Translations under genes and position numbers: made by a program
Assembly (NCBI RefSeq): GCF_002937115.1
Contig: NZ_NHRY01000057.1
Location: 1 to 35,708 of the forward strand
Direction: 5' to 3'
Length of the DNA stretch: 35,708 nucleotides
Origin: Rhodopila globiformis
GTDB taxonomy: Bacteria > Pseudomonadota > Alphaproteobacteria > Acetobacterales > Acetobacteraceae
In this document: positions 1 to 35,708 of the stretch, one piece after another
How positions within the stretch are numbered: the stretch's first letter is position 1
Layout of the letters: each line of letters starts with the position of its first letter
The notes under the pieces: generated by a model
The model's input: the letters and a program-made list of their open reading frames with translations, nothing else
Told to the model about the DNA's origin: nothing
The model's database searches: none

Positions 1-161
1 CTGAACCGGCCACTTTAGTGGCCAACTGAACCCGGGACCGCGTTAGCGGTCCCGCTTGCCGCTTTGAGCGGCTCACACTCAACGGGCCGCGTCAGCGACC
101 CGCCCGGCCGCTTTGAGCGGCCAACACCATAAAGCCCCCGGCTCTGCCGGGGGATATTTAC
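1..161. repeat. Terminal hairpin-array repeat, left copy
   Basis: Six consecutive stem-loops: 8-23, 34-53, 58-72, 84-101, 106-122 and 135-153, with stems of 6-8 bp and loops of 3-4 nt. The whole block is repeated in inverted orientation at 35548-35708; bases 1-127 are identical to their counterpart, base 128 differs (C here, T on the equivalent strand there), and 129-161 match again. Read on the minus strand, hairpins 5+4 and 3+2 form two tandem units of about 50 nt, and hairpin 1 begins a third unit cut by the window edge. No ORF fits. Bases 162-333 between this block and fdsD show only a short AT-rich patch near 245-265 and no gene. I do not recognise the family. Confidence 0.9.
135..153 (-). 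terminator. Possible terminator hairpin downstream of fds operon
   Basis: An 8-bp perfect GC stem with a 3-nt loop. On the minus strand it is followed by CTTTAT, a weak U-rich tail. It is the first strong hairpin downstream of fdsD (which ends at 334), so it could end the fds transcript. It is also part of the terminal repeat, and its primary role may be something else. Confidence 0.3.
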
Positions 162-27844: not shown

Positions 27845-28987
27845 CTAGCGGTCGTCCCGCGTGTCCCCGAACTCCACGTCGCGATGCACGTGGACCGACA
27901 TGAGAATCCCGAAGCCGACCATCACTGTCAGCATCGCCGAGCCGCCGTGCGAAACCAGCGGCAGCGGCACGCCGCCGACCGGAATCACGCCCATCACCAT
28001 GGCGATGTTGACGAAGACATAAAAGAAGAAGTTGCAGGCGATGCCCAGCGCCACCAGCCTGCCAAACTGATTCCGGCATCGCAACGCAATCAGCATGCCG
28101 CCCAGGACGATCAGCGCCAGCAGGCCAATCACCGCGAGCGCGCCGACGAAGCCGAATTCCTCGCCAATGATGGTGAAAATGAAGTCGGTCTGCTTCTCAG
28201 GCAGGAAGTCCAGGTGAGCCTGGGTGCCTTGCAGGAATCCCTGCCCCCACATCCCGCCCGAGCCGAGCGCGATCTTCGACTGGATGATGTTGTAGCCCGC
28301 CCCCAGCGGATCGCTTTCCGGATGCAGGAAGGTGTCGATACGGGCGCGTTGATAGTCGTGCAGATGGCTGTACGCGATCGGCGCCAGCAGCGGGATCGGC
28401 AGCAGCACCAGGGCGAATTTCCACCACCGCACCCCGGCGGCGAAGAAGATCGCGCCACCGATCATGGCGGTGATCGTCGCGGTGCCGAGATTCGGTTCCT
28501 TCAGGATCAGGCCGACGGGAACCAGCGTGGCGAGCGCCGGCGGAATCAGGAACAGCGGATTGCCCATCCGCTCCCAGGAAGCGCGATGGAACCACGAGGC
28601 CAGCGCCAGGATCAGCGCCAGCTTCATCATCTCGGACGGCTGTAGCTGCAGCCCGCCCAGATCGAGCCAGCGCTGCGCCCCCTTGCCGACATGGCCCATG
28701 CGCAGCACCAGCCCCAGCAGGACGACGCAGCCGAACCAGGCCGGCCACGCAAGCTTGGCGATAATGCGGATGTCGACCAGGCCGATCGCCAGCGCGATCA
28801 CCAGCCCGAAGGCGAAGCGCAGCGCGTGGCGGGTCGCATACGGCTCGGCCGAGCCGCCGCCGGCGCTGTACAGCGCGGTGTAGCCGACGCCGGCCAGGCA
28901 GCACAGCAGCAGGACATAGATCCAGTTGATCTGCAGGATCTTGCCCATCAGGTCGAACGACGGCTCCCGCCACAGGCGACGATCCAT
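27845..28987 (-). CDS. rodA: Rod-shape peptidoglycan glycosyltransferase RodA
   Basis: 380-residue SEDS-family polymerase that builds glycan strands from lipid II during cell elongation, working with PBP2. About ten transmembrane helices are evident. Conserved segments include GKGAQRWLDLGGLQLQPSE, LKEPNLGTATI, the long periplasmic loop with HLDFLPEKQTDFIFTIIGEE and the C-terminal GVPLPLVSHGGSAML. The DFIF...EE region contains the essential acidic residues of the family. The start ATG at 28987 overlaps the mrdA stop by 1 bp (TAATG). The next gene, DUF3293, starts immediately after the rodA stop. All are on one mre-mrd transcript. Confidence 0.96.
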   Translation of the reverse strand: MDRRLWREPSFDLMGKILQINWIYVLLLCCLAGVGYTALYSAGGGSAEPYATRHALRFAFGLVIALAIGLVDIRIIAKLAWPAWFGCVVLLGLVLRMGHVGKGAQRWLDLGGLQLQPSEMMKLALILALASWFHRASWERMGNPLFLIPPALATLVPVGLILKEPNLGTATITAMIGGAIFFAAGVRWWKFALVLLPIPLLAPIAYSHLHDYQRARIDTFLHPESDPLGAGYNIIQSKIALGSGGMWGQGFLQGTQAHLDFLPEKQTDFIFTIIGEEFGFVGALAVIGLLALIVLGGMLIALRCRNQFGRLVALGIACNFFFYVFVNIAMVMGVIPVGGVPLPLVSHGGSAMLTVMVGFGILMSVHVHRDVEFGDTRDDR

Positions 28988-30855
28988 TACGTGTGCGTCT
29001 CCGCGATCTGTGGCGCCGACGGCGGCTCGGTCCGGTTGGACGGGTCGCGCCGCAGCGTCTCCGTCATGACGTCGCGCGCCACCGGCGCCGCCGCGGCGGC
29101 GCCGGCGTTGCCGTGCTCGATCACCACCGCCACGGCATAGCGCGGCGCGTCATAGGGCGCATAGGCGACGAACAGCGCGTGCGGGCGATATTCCCAGGGC
29201 AGCTTCTCGCTGTCGAAATGACCGCTCTCGCGCAGTTCGCGCGACACGCGGCGCACCTGGGCCGAGCCGGTCTTGCCCGCCAGTTGCACGTTCGGGTCGG
29301 CCAGGCGGGCCTGCGGCGCGGTGCCGCCGGGCTCGTTGACCACCGCCCACATGCCCACGCGCACGTCGTGCAGCAGCTTCTCCGGCAGGCCCAGGATCGG
29401 CCAGTCATCGGCTTCCGCGCCCGGCTGCAGGATGCCCGACAGCTTGCGGGTCAGGTGCGGCTGCACGATGCGTCCGCTGGCGATGCGCGAGACATAGGTC
29501 GCAAGCTGCAACGGCGTCACCTGGATGTAGCCCTGGCCGATGCCGCTGACGATGGTGTCGCCGATGTTCCAGGCATGGCCTTTGCTCTCCCGCCACTCCC
29601 GCGTCGGGATCAGCCCGGCGCGCTGGCCCGGCAGGTCGAGGTCCAGCTCCACCCCCAGCCCGAACCGGTTGGCCATGGCGGCGATACGGTCGATGCCGGT
29701 GCGCCGCGCAACCTCATAGAAATACACGTCGCAACTGTTCTTGATACCGCCGTGCAGGTCGAGCAGGCCGTGCCCGCCCTTGCGCCAGCAGTGGAAGCGC
29801 GTGTCGCCCAGGTCCAGGTAGCCGGGGCAGTTGATGCGGTCGCTCGGGGAGATGGCGCCCGACTCGAGGCCGGCCAGCGCCACCGCCATCTTGAAGGTCG
29901 AGCCCGGGGCATACAGCCCGGACGTCGCCTTGTTGATCAGCGGCGTGCGGCGGTCCTTGGTCCATTCCAGCCATTGCGCCTGCGACACGCCGGAGTTGAA
30001 CAGCGACGGATCGAACGACGGGTTGGTCGCCATCGCCAGCACCTCGCCGTTGCGGCAGTCCATCACCACGGCGCTGGCGCTTTCGTCGCCGAGCCGTTGC
30101 AGCACCGCCTGCTGCAGGCCGGCGTCGATGGTCAGCCCGACTTCCTCGCCGGGCACGCCGTCCTGGCGGTCCAGCTCGCGGATCACCCGGCCGACGGCGT
30201 TGACTTCCAACTGCACCGACCCGGCCCGGCCGCGCAGCGCGAGATCATGGTATTTCTCCATCCCGGCCCGGCCGAGCCGCAGCCCCGGCAGGCCGAGCAT
30301 CGGGTCGTCTGCCACGTCGGCCTCGTTCGGCGGGGCGACGTAGCCGACGACATGGGCCAACTTGTCACTGAACGGGTACTGCCGGGTGGTGCCGGCATCG
30401 ACGACGATGCCCGGCAGGTCGGGCGCGTTCACCTCGATCTTCGCCATCTCGTCCCAGGTCAGGAACTCGCGGACCGTGACGGGAATGAAGCGGCGGCGGT
30501 GATGCAGCTCGCGGTCGATGCGGGTGCGTTCGTACTCGCTCAGCGGCAGCAGCGCCGAGAACGCGTCCAGTGTCGCCTGGACGTTGTTGGCCTGCTCGGC
30601 GATCAGCACGGCGCGCCAGTTGGTGCTGTTGCCGGCGACGACGATGCCGAACCGGTCCAGGATGCGCCCGCGCGGCGGCGCGATCATCCGGGCGCTGATG
30701 CGGTTCTCCTCGGCCAGGGTGGTGTAGCGCGCGCCGTCCTCCACCTGCACCTGGTACAGCCGGGTCGCCAGGGTTCCCAGCACCGCCACCTGCCCGCCCA
30801 TCAGCAGCAGGGCGCGGCGGGTGAAGATGCCGCTGCGTTGCCGCTCGCGCCGCAT
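28987..30855 (-). CDS. mrdA: Penicillin-binding protein 2 (peptidoglycan transpeptidase)
   Basis: 622-residue class B PBP that cross-links peptidoglycan during elongation in complex with RodA. It has a short cytoplasmic tail and one transmembrane helix (about 13-32), a PBP dimerisation/pedestal domain (about 60-230) with PPRGRILDRFG, and a transpeptidase domain with Ser319 in GSTFK, SCD (374-376) and KTG in LAGKTGSAQ. All three active-site motifs are intact. The frame is open upstream to 31113, but that part overlaps mreD; the ATG at 30855 shares a base with the mreD stop (TGATG) and gives the normal PBP2 start. The C-terminal 20 residues are a Pro/Thr-rich tail. Confidence 0.96.
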   Translation of the reverse strand: MRRERQRSGIFTRRALLLMGGQVAVLGTLATRLYQVQVEDGARYTTLAEENRISARMIAPPRGRILDRFGIVVAGNSTNWRAVLIAEQANNVQATLDAFSALLPLSEYERTRIDRELHHRRRFIPVTVREFLTWDEMAKIEVNAPDLPGIVVDAGTTRQYPFSDKLAHVVGYVAPPNEADVADDPMLGLPGLRLGRAGMEKYHDLALRGRAGSVQLEVNAVGRVIRELDRQDGVPGEEVGLTIDAGLQQAVLQRLGDESASAVVMDCRNGEVLAMATNPSFDPSLFNSGVSQAQWLEWTKDRRTPLINKATSGLYAPGSTFKMAVALAGLESGAISPSDRINCPGYLDLGDTRFHCWRKGGHGLLDLHGGIKNSCDVYFYEVARRTGIDRIAAMANRFGLGVELDLDLPGQRAGLIPTREWRESKGHAWNIGDTIVSGIGQGYIQVTPLQLATYVSRIASGRIVQPHLTRKLSGILQPGAEADDWPILGLPEKLLHDVRVGMWAVVNEPGGTAPQARLADPNVQLAGKTGSAQVRRVSRELRESGHFDSEKLPWEYRPHALFVAYAPYDAPRYAVAVVIEHGNAGAAAAAPVARDVMTETLRRDPSNRTEPPSAPQIAETHT

Positions 30856-31412
30856 CAGGCCCGCTCCGGATTGGCCACCGAGCGCAGCGCCGCGGCGAAC
30901 GGCACCGCCAGCACCGGGTAGATCGCGACGCTCAGGATGGCCATGAAGACCATCGGGTCCGGCGACAGCAGCCGGAAGTTCAGCAGCATTATCAGCAGCC
31001 ACATCAGCAGCGAGGCGGCGCAGGCGACCAGGGCGAACAGGCTCCAGATCCAGGCGAAGCCGCGCGGCGCCAGCCGCCACCGGCGCAGCGATGCCGCGAC
31101 GCCGTGCACGCACAGCAGTGTGAACACGCCGACGCCCAGCGGCAGGTAGCCCAGCAGGTCGAGCAGCAGGCCGACGACGAACACCACCGGCGGCGGGAAG
31201 CTGGCCGGCCGGTACAGCGACCAGAACCAGACCGCCCCCAGCGTCACCGCCGGCAGCAGTGTCGGCTGGTCCGCCAGGCCCAGCGGCGCCTCGGTCAGCA
31301 GCATCAGCAGGATGGTGATGCAGGCCGGGAAGCTGGCCCGCGCCGCGATGTCCAGCCGCCGGCCGAGACTGGGCCGGGGCCGGATGCCGGGGCGGCGGTC
31401 GATGAAGGCCAT
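30855..31412 (-). CDS. mreD: Rod shape-determining protein MreD
   Basis: 185-residue polytopic membrane protein, with five or so hydrophobic helices in the standard MreD plan (ITILLMLLTEAPLG; VVFVVGLLLDLLGYLPLGVG; SLFALVACAASLLMWLLIML). MreD links MreC to the PBP2-RodA synthase. The LLLDLLGYLPLG segment is the most recognisable family element. It begins 1 bp after the mreC stop and its own stop overlaps the mrdA start, so the operon is translationally coupled. Length is usual for alphaproteobacterial MreD. Confidence 0.93.
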   Translation of the reverse strand: MAFIDRRPGIRPRPSLGRRLDIAARASFPACITILLMLLTEAPLGLADQPTLLPAVTLGAVWFWSLYRPASFPPPVVFVVGLLLDLLGYLPLGVGVFTLLCVHGVAASLRRWRLAPRGFAWIWSLFALVACAASLLMWLLIMLLNFRLLSPDPMVFMAILSVAIYPVLAVPFAAALRSVANPERA

Positions 31413-31413
31413 C

Positions 31414-32274
31414 TCAGCGATGGCCAGGGGTCGGATTCGCGGCAGGCTCGGGCGGCGTGACGCCGTTCAGGCCGAAGTCGAAGATGCGCACGATCTCCAG
31501 CTTCTGCAGCCGCGCCGCCGGTTCGACCTCCGGCGTGCCGTTGCTGGTGTAGTGCACCGTGCCGACCGGCAGGTTGGCGGGGAAGGCGTTGGCCTCGGCG
31601 CTGGTGACGACCCGCTCGCCTTCCTGCGGCATCACGCCCTCCGGCCAGTACACCAGCCGCGGGCGGGGGTTGTTGGTGCCGATCAGAATGGCATGGGCGC
31701 GGGAGGTTTCCAGCGTCACCGGGATGCGGCTGTTCAGGTCGGTCAGCAGCAGCACGCGCGCGGTGCGGGTGCCGACTTCGGTGACGCGGCCAACCAGGCC
31801 ACGCTCGTCCACCGCGATTTCGCCCTTGCGGATGTTGTGGTTCGGGCCGACCGACAGCAGCACCGCCTTGGCATAGACACCGCCGGCGTCGGCCACCACC
31901 CGGGCAGTGACGAACGAGCCCTGGGGATCGGGAATCCAGCGCAGGCTGGCCTTCAGCCGCTGGTTTTCCGCGTCCAGCGCCAGGGCAACGGACTGCCAGC
32001 GGCGCAGCTTTTCGTTCTCCGCGCGCAGGCGGGCGTTTTCCTCGCGCATGTCCCAGAGGTTGACCGCCTCGGTGGCGGCGCCGTGCAGGCGTCCGAGCGG
32101 ACCGGCCAGCACGGCGTAGATCGGCGCCAGGCTGTCAGCCAGGGCGATTCGCGCCCGCTCGGCCAACACGGCGTCGGCCTTGCCGAGCAGCATCAGACCG
32201 AACGAAGCGATAATGAGAACCGGCAAGGTCAGCCGCGCCAGAGCCTGGCGAGCCTGGATCGAGAGGCGGATCAT
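31414..32274 (-). CDS. mreC: Rod shape-determining protein MreC
   Basis: 286 residues. A short cytoplasmic N-terminus and one transmembrane helix (about 17-32) are followed by a coiled coil (NLWDMREENARLRAENEKL, about 73-91) and the two beta-barrel domains of MreC (GLVGRVTEVGTRTARVLLLT; PVTLETSRAHAILIG). It scaffolds the elongasome in the periplasm. The frame opens at 32319, but the ATG at 32274 (MIRLSIQARQAL) matches the usual alphaproteobacterial start and is preceded by AAGGTG. It follows mreB by about 105 bp, a gap in which no feature stands out. The C-terminus ends with a short Pro-rich tail. Confidence 0.94.
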   Translation of the reverse strand: MIRLSIQARQALARLTLPVLIIASFGLMLLGKADAVLAERARIALADSLAPIYAVLAGPLGRLHGAATEAVNLWDMREENARLRAENEKLRRWQSVALALDAENQRLKASLRWIPDPQGSFVTARVVADAGGVYAKAVLLSVGPNHNIRKGEIAVDERGLVGRVTEVGTRTARVLLLTDLNSRIPVTLETSRAHAILIGTNNPRPRLVYWPEGVMPQEGERVVTSAEANAFPANLPVGTVHYTSNGTPEVEPAARLQKLEIVRIFDFGLNGVTPPEPAANPTPGHR

Positions 32275-32379
32275 GGGCACCTTCAGCCACAGGAGCGCTT
32301 CAACGGCACCATTGCGCATAGGCCGACCGGGTATCGCGGCCGGGAAACGCGCTCGGGTTCCACGGCCGGGACAGGGGGT

Positions 32380-33480
<1,101 letters not shown>

Positions 33481-34799: not shown

Positions 34800-34880
34800 G
34801 GGTAGCAACGGCCGTGCCCCTGGCCGCCAAAATTACAGCAGACCGCAGGTCGGTTGGGACGCACAGGTGGCCTGTCCACA

Positions 34881-34975
34881 TCGTCATGGCCCGGACAAGC
34901 CGGGCCATGACGATGGGGGAACGCTCTCGGAGCCCAGGCAAGCACTTGATTTTACGGTCATTTCCGACTCGTTTC
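34881..34975. repeat. REP-like palindrome, family B, with conserved tail
   Basis: A compact palindrome, arms TCATGGCCCGG and CCGGGCCATGA with a 5-nt loop (34884-34910), is followed by the tail GATGGGGGAACGCTCT...GCAAGCACTTGATTTTACGG.... The segment 34888-34975 matches 16431-16518 with two differences in 88 nt. Here the left half of the long palindrome seen at 16378-16426 is absent. Confidence 0.8.
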
Positions 34976-35107
34976 AGAAATCTGTGCATCCCGTAGGGAC
35001 GAGCCGGGCTATGACGATGCGGGTGCGCCGTCGCCCTGTCCCAACCGACCTGCGGTCTGCTGTAGCGCGTATGGCGCAGCGCCGGGCGGCGACTTGTGCC
35101 CCGGTAT

Positions 35108-35235
35108 CTTGGCGTCTTGGCGTCTTGGCGTTGAACAGGAACGGCGCAACCGCACCGGGCGGTGACGGGTGCGCCTGGCGGGTGGTTCGTGCGATGGATG
35201 GCACCGATGAAACGCCGAGACGCCAAGACGCCAAG
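35108..35235. repeat. Inverted repeat with GGCGTCTT modules (type F)
   Basis: Left arm 35108-35132 is three 8-nt units (CTTGGCGT); right arm 35210-35235 is the inverse with one change. The 77-nt interior has no open frame of note. Confidence 0.75.
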
Positions 35236-35547: not shown

Positions 35548-35708
35548 GTAAATATCCCCCGGCAGAGCCGGGGGCTTTATAGTGTTGGCCGCTCAAAGCG
35601 GCCGGGCGGGTCGCTGACGCGGCCCGTTGAGTGTGAGCCGCTCAAAGCGGCAAGCGGGACCGCTAACGCGGTCCCGGGTTCAGTTGGCCACTAAAGTGGC
35701 CGGTTCAG
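35548..35708. repeat. Terminal hairpin-array repeat, right copy
   Basis: Inverse of 1-161. On the plus strand the hairpins have loops AGA, CAA, TGAC, CAA, TAAC and TAAA. The hairpin starting positions at 35587, 35637 and 35686 mark a period of about 50 nt. On this strand the one imperfect stem (GGGTCGC-TGAC-GCGGCCC) contains a G-T (G-U in RNA) wobble; on the other strand it would be an A-C mismatch. That favours this strand as the folded one. Bases 35582-35708 are identical to 1-127. Confidence 0.9.

Follow-up and report, generated by a model that had tools for sequence, protein, structure and literature searches.

The hairpin array at the edge of a 35,708-nucleotide stretch of Rhodopila globiformis DNA (the window throughout this work) is very probably the right end of an IS200-group single-strand transposon, in which a tip hairpin (HP4), its AAAG foot and a terminal TTAC would be folded, bound and cut by the transposase TnpA. 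Anatomy and comparison with related elements strongly support both this identity and the mechanism proposed for the end. The element is of a known kind, with an expansion of its end that is specific to the clade, and a puzzling edge feature becomes the defined end of a mobile element. Its parts are as follows.

35548..35708, minus strand: probable right end (RE) of an IS200-group insertion sequence, from the putative tnpA stop codon to the element tip; the contig is broken here by the repeat
35548..35551, minus strand: TTAC, final four bases of the element and putative right cleavage site (CR); a pyrimidine opens the flank
35556..35574, minus strand: HP4, the tip hairpin CCCCCGGC-TCT-GCCGGGGG, putatively recognised by TnpA; seven of its eight pairs are invariant across 33 elements
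35575..35578, minus strand: AAAG, foot of HP4 and putative right guide (GR) pairing with TTAC; last base complementary to the end of the RE in 29 of 33
35587..35603, minus strand: HP3 of the tip-proximal unit; loop TTG (CAA on the plus strand)
35607..35626, minus strand: HP2 of the tip-proximal unit; C.A mismatch (G.T on the plus strand); loop GTCA
35637..35651, minus strand: HP3 of the tnpA-proximal unit; loop TTG
35655..35676, minus strand: HP2 of the tnpA-proximal unit; all pairs formed; loop GTTA
35686..35701, minus strand: HP1, a single hairpin right behind the stop codon; loop TTTA
35705..35707, minus strand: putative tnpA stop codon TGA at the contig edge, placed by reference to the relative L045, in which tnpA ends in NLWR and a stop and HP1 follows directly
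1..161, plus strand: second copy of the RE, at the other contig end in opposite orientation, differing by one base

Read on the minus strand from the contig edge, the order is the putative stop, HP1, HP2, HP3, HP2', HP3', AAAG, HP4, ATAT, TTAC and the flank. Folding 35548-35708 as the plus strand yielded -92.2 kcal/mol, compared with -66.7 +/- 3.8 in 200 shuffles (z -6.7), and the minus strand was similarly far more stable than its shuffles (z -7.3), which confirms the six stem-loops described in an earlier note made from the letters of this DNA. The two units of one plan that it reported, each a CAA-loop stem followed on the plus strand by a TGAC- or TAAC-loop stem, were recovered at a spacing of 49 nt with 78% identity over 45 of 49 nt, and the imperfect stem compatible with G-U pairing on one strand only proved to be 35607-35626, with G.T on the plus strand and C.A on the minus strand. 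The supposed third unit starting at the edge is instead HP1 (35686-35701), a different, single hairpin, and since it adjoins the putative tnpA stop (35705-35707) the array ends there. The change from GCCGC/GCGGC to GCCAC/GTGGC, previously read as covariation, sets HP3 against HP1, which are non-homologous hairpins, and is therefore no evidence of covariation. A CRISPR array was rejected, as the units are only 78% alike (45 of 49 nt) and lack spacers, with Rfam CRISPR-DR23 at 16.7 bits against a gathering score of 45; an Rfam search of the array at a lax threshold returned no family that reaches its gathering score.

Identity of the element and its ends

The same 161 bp were found at 26 places or more in the window's genome at 99-100% identity, a lower bound given that 40 of 86 first-look candidates were scored. 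Fourteen of the 26 begin at the first base of a contig and seven more stop at the last base of one, such that the repeat explains at least 21 contig ends of the assembly. Both ends of the window contig are RE copies, and it is this repeat that broke the assembly at the window edge. A matching left end (LE), searched with a query from a relative, gave at least 23 near-full matches in the same genome (40 of 60 candidates scored). A PF01797 profile search of the assembled genome returned no match, presumably because the interior of the repeat collapsed and was left out; with the interior absent from the assembly, the link to a tnpA of its own is drawn from end sequences and from relatives. Array matches were present in 10 of the 98 genomes searched (this one included). 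A covariance model (R1), built from 33 one-unit right ends with no multi-unit element among them, finds the window array at 98.3 bits over 35548-35657 and matched in 9 of 98 genomes (again including this one), its single match outside the genus being weak at 44.1 bits.

The Y1/TnpA gene that the earlier note thought might lie beside other copies was found in two relatives (L044 and L045), where only a few bases separate the end of tnpA from the array. Each encodes an intact, single small Y1/HUH transposase of 143 residues, with its stop codon a few bases from HP1. The protein matches PF01797 (Y1_Tnp) at 1.4e-38 and 132 bits (cut-off 23) and NF033573 (IS200/IS605 transposase) at 2.2e-43, with 147.5 bits for L045 (cut-off 55); solved Y1 transposases also match it by sequence, the best being 2ec2 (3.9e-27), with the ISHp608 transposase at 9.3e-18. 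Within the window's own genome the gene was seen as its start at the LE only, two left ends carrying the tnpA start MDEFESLNHTKW (read from the DNA), and a subterminal hairpin is present at both ends (the LE hairpin and HP4) in this genome and in relatives. The direct continuation of tnpA into the RE in L044 and L045, with no tnpB, is that of the IS200 group and not of IS605. For PF07282 (TnpB) nothing above cut-off was found in the assembled contigs, where one match reached 22.5 bits against 26.3, a scan that would miss a tnpB inside collapsed repeats. The suggestion that no known family fits was therefore wrong, as the protein belongs to NF033573/PF01797 and the ends obey an IS608-like guide rule. 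Among the three candidates put forward at the time, the end of a hairpin-recognising transposon was the right one, whereas a structured-RNA array and a protein-binding array are unneeded; a role of the inner hairpins in RNA is possible.

Compared with known systems, the element shares with enteric IS200 (IS200C in E. coli) one small Y1 transposase gene, at 42.6% identity over 141 residues, and a hairpin near either end, and R1 scores the IS200C right end at 39 bits. The two differ in the hairpins that follow tnpA: IS200C has two short ones by fold and a third by eye, whereas this clade has four GC-rich hairpins and the window lineage six. A translation start folded into a stem of the 5' UTR is also common to both, being published for Salmonella IS200 as sequestration of the ribosome-binding site (excerpts of PMC12594629) and predicted here from L045, whose 5' UTR folds with the start codon in a stem, a weaker result (z -2.4, 4 of 200 shuffles as good). 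The same excerpts describe IS200 in enteric bacteria as essentially immobile and tightly controlled (PMC12594629). REP and BIME sequences with TnpA_REP are likewise palindromes tied to a Y1 protein; a REP or REPtron origin was rejected on the basis of the foot, which is AAAG and not GTAG, and of the NF047646 score (46.6 bits, far under the cut-off of 80).

At the right end, AAAG ahead of HP4 and TTAC as the terminus match the published logic of IS608, whose left guide (GL) AAAG and target TTAC form an identical pair, and whose preference for C at +1 (excerpts of PMC5934647) resembles the C or T observed here. The +1 base of the RE was C or T in all 17 distinct own-genome copies inspected (of 26), and a pyrimidine in all 24 Acidovorax temperans rows with a right end, this set comprising 25 loci of which L104 has no right end and two rows have common flanks. 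Complementarity between the last guide base and the last base of the RE was found in 29 of 33 right ends (26 G-C, 2 A-T and 1 C-G) and was broken in four, two of them possibly mis-bounded by the search pattern. IS608 differs in carrying tnpB and, according to excerpts of the published account, in having one imperfect palindrome per end (PMC5934647), and also in its target, which is TTAC as opposed to the CTAA, CTAG, TTAA, TTAT, TAAA or TAAT specified by the guides of the present elements.

A corresponding rule for guide and target pairing at the left end, with A as the third target base, was fixed beforehand from the IS608 pair and three elements (that of the window, its miniature derivative and that of A. 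temperans). It fits 33 of 37 distinct elements at a spacing of 9-11, against 0.17 expected from flanking positions, the 37 being those left ends that fit the hairpin pattern among 80 loci and including four near copies from one genome (L127-L130); the exceptions are L070, L089, L092 and L106. The flank of the LE in the window's genome read CTAAC in 10 of 10 copies inspected (of 23). Insertion at a fixed tetranucleotide without target duplication is documented by an empty site for one miniature copy and for no full-length copy of this genome: comparing an uninterrupted repeat copy (C269) with the copy that holds the miniature element (C254) makes the insertion point visible, with no target duplication and an ambiguity of one base. 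By analogy with IS608, TnpA would act on the top DNA strand, the one that codes for tnpA, folding HP4 with its AAAG foot and the TTAC terminus, binding this structure and cutting it at a position chosen through pairing between guide and cleavage site, and the element would insert 3' of a tetranucleotide (CTAA here) dictated by the left guide.

Right-end plan, unit duplication and conserved folding

Scanning GTDB genome contigs with this TnpA found at least 532 relatives, of which the best 80 were retained. Their hosts include Alpha-, Beta- and Gammaproteobacteria, Magnetococcales, Acidobacteriota and one Deltaproteobacterium, a list that is no survey given that only the closest 80 were kept. 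A complete right end was recognised by pattern in 68 of the 80, representing 38 distinct sequences; ten of the other 12, being truncated, decayed or masked, still show HP1 or more by eye, and in L071 and L073 none was recognised. The plan HP1-HP2-HP3-HP4 is present in 34 of the 38 distinct complete right ends, 33 of them plain and one (L087) with an insert before it. Two HP2-HP3 units, as in the window element, are found in L069, L070 and L082, and three in L072. A tree of 35 transposase genes places these four multi-unit elements on one side of a branch with support of 92/94, consistent with a single origin of the duplication, and unit number changes once on this tree (0 of 500 shuffles as low; bootstrap not settled). 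The HP2-HP3 unit thus probably underwent a single duplication, in a lineage of Alphaproteobacteria. One-unit copies also occur within the genus, at C269 of the window's genome (by eye) and at C166 and C324 of a second genome (G004).

Two further observations were made among the relatives. One element (L218, G206:C157) has HP1, HP3 and HP4 and, by eye, no HP2. One identical right end is common to 28 of the 68 loci (the L096 group, L096-L148, and L159); record titles and element tips point to Acidovorax temperans, Polaromonas and Achromobacter as hosts, and the Achromobacter plasmid pDCA-1 has this right end too, which suggests recent transfer.

A right end with more than one hairpin has a precedent, as excerpts of PMC7290912 report three potential hairpins for an IS605 element at this end. 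A survey of other IS200-group elements found 27 hairpins in 19 loci, compared with 2.05 expected from shuffles that kept base composition only. It started from 30 loci, in 11 of which no open frame was found; as its 190-nt stretches may overrun the element, the frame of L204 may be wrong and five or more of the 19 loci fall by eye within the window's own clade, the survey supports loosely the view that hairpins behind tnpA are common in the IS200 group. Comparison elements with both tnpA and tnpB (L178-L181) were left out of the argument.

The structure of HP1-HP3 is conserved, and this conclusion is well supported. Across the 33 aligned one-unit ends, 99.4% of pair cells in the four-helix structure are standard, and 8 of 27 pairs have changed on both sides (19 cells); none of 500 shuffles reached these values or the covariation score, in tests that are inflated by the relatedness of the sequences, and slid controls gave 0-2 double-change pairs. 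The count of further pair types was equalled by 54 of the 500 shuffles. Double-change pairs are present in each of HP1, HP2 and HP3; HP4 is nearly invariant, and little can thus be said of its covariation. The earlier proposal that folding rather than sequence is under selection is in this respect borne out, with compensatory changes both between elements and between paralogous copies of HP2.

The position of the mismatch in HP2 (pair 41-52) is occupied by C.A in 24 of the 33 one-unit ends, by T-A in four, A-T in two, C-G in one and other combinations in two; with C.A absent from nine of the 33, the mismatch is not essential. The fourth pair from the loop in 17 distinct paralogous HP2 copies, drawn from 11 multi-unit arrays and hence not all independent, is C.A in six, C-G in four, T-A in three, G-C in two and other in two. 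By eye, every one of the 11 arrays has at least one HP2 with C.A at the fourth or fifth pair from the loop.

Possible roles of the inner hairpins

The reading that we prefer, albeit tentatively, is that HP1-HP3 form a structured 3' untranslated region once tnpA is transcribed; there they would stabilise the message, end it or shield it and hold down the output of transposase, and HP3 may form part of the DNA end as well. Such a split of roles is favoured by three gene-less miniature elements of about 196 bp in the window's genome (L170 on C254, L171 on C276 and L172 on C252), two of which are identical over 196 bp aligned. They consist of LE and RE only, as do PATE or MITE-type non-autonomous derivatives of IS200, and as ~196-bp derivatives they are not the array itself. 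Each combines a left hairpin with an RE made up of HP4 and an HP3-like stem, which has the same TTTGA apex and a different stem sequence, while HP1 and HP2 are not recognisable. The miniature elements have a guide of their own, with target CTAT, and may therefore descend from a sister element. As they lack HP1 and HP2, these two hairpins seem dispensable in cis for movement, which would point to a role with tnpA expression, reasoning here from three copies with a different guide.

Some facts count against this reading. What it chiefly leaves unexplained is the C.A mismatch of HP2, which turns into a standard G.U pair on the antisense strand of tnpA alone. In addition, shortened copies in G004 (C324 and C166, about 444 and 466 bp from LE to RE) retain a complete one-unit right end with HP1-HP4, and the PF01797 search of that genome gave no match, so that HP1 and HP2 persist there without a recognisable tnpA.

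The strand asymmetry of HP2 bears most directly on an unlikely alternative, that the array acts on the other strand as an insulator, stopping or slowing transcription from the flank such that no antisense or read-through RNA crosses tnpA. The mismatched pair is standard in 31 of 33 one-unit ends when read as antisense RNA, against 7 of 33 on the sense strand. Outside this pair, G.U and A.C cells number 3 and 2 among the 27 pairs, which are very few cells. Behind the hairpins on the sense strand no U-rich tail was found, a further point against the 3' untranslated region; the sole terminator-like match in the region is antisense, consisting of HP4 followed by CTTTATAG. However, one such match is near the level of shuffles (mean 0.3, sd 0.7), its CTTT is the mere complement of the AAAG guide, and HP1-HP3 have no U-tracts.

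A somewhat less doubtful alternative holds that HP1-HP3 act as single-stranded DNA, as extra hairpins that bind TnpA or a host protein and help keep the right end in its folded state while the lagging strand is replicated; duplicated units would raise the local occupancy of TnpA. Consistent with this are the position of HP3 near HP4 in single-unit elements, the HP3-like stem with its TTTGA apex that miniature elements retain, and the small hairpins between tnpA and tip in IS200-group elements of E. coli, S. aureus, Tetragenococcus and E. faecium (partly by eye), as well as the mismatch itself, a mismatch or bulge in the stem serving recognition in ISDra2 and in some REP hairpins (excerpts of PMC8266576). 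On the other hand, HP1 and HP2 were not seen in the miniature elements, and the tip hairpins (HP4 and that of the LE) have no mismatch, which makes HP2 unlike a copy of the known binding site. L218 would moreover be a natural element without HP2, as judged by eye and known from sequence alone.

IS605-type elements encode the scaffold of a guide RNA in their right end, and the array could by that precedent carry a TnpB-type guide RNA or be what remains of one, or else be an independent structured RNA array, both of which we regard as highly improbable. An Rfam match to sot2652 points the same way, although at 11.7 bits against a gathering score of 61 it is below threshold and probably due to chance, and no Rfam family matches at threshold. 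A TnpB guide RNA (omega RNA) was rejected because no partner TnpB in the assembled contigs passed the family cut-off; tnpA is continuous with the right end in L044 and L045, and copies without tnpA in this genome or genus (C269 and L015) appear by eye to be decayed right ends. A free-standing RNA array was set aside because the array is a transposon end beside tnpA.

Returning to the preferred role in limiting TnpA output, a more general and slightly more tentative proposal may be framed: IS200-group elements might possess a second structural module between tnpA and the tip hairpin, covarying and with a strand-asymmetric HP2 mismatch under selection, that would control the element through RNA or single-stranded DNA and could grow by duplication of its unit (to one, two or three HP2-HP3 units). 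The literature searched, which lay mostly outside subscription journals, showed neither an HP1-HP3 module nor a duplication of it. If the inner hairpins are functional, IS200 would gain a conserved 3' module beside its known 5' controls, and elements without HP2 (L218) or with one, two or three HP2-HP3 units represent natural variants.

Other features of the window

A second repeat lies close to the array. It spans 231 bp (34834-35064), with perfect inverted ends of 27 bp and an internal palindrome (beginning CATCGTCATGGCCCGG), and at least 132 matching pieces were found in the same genome when 40 of 675 first-look candidates were scored, indicating a very abundant palindromic family. Between this repeat and the array, 35107-35132 and 35211-35235 form an inverted repeat built of tandem CTTGGCGT units. 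Further into the window, 27845-33423 on the minus strand holds cell-shape genes, encoding MreB, MreC, a penicillin-binding protein and a RodA/FtsW protein.
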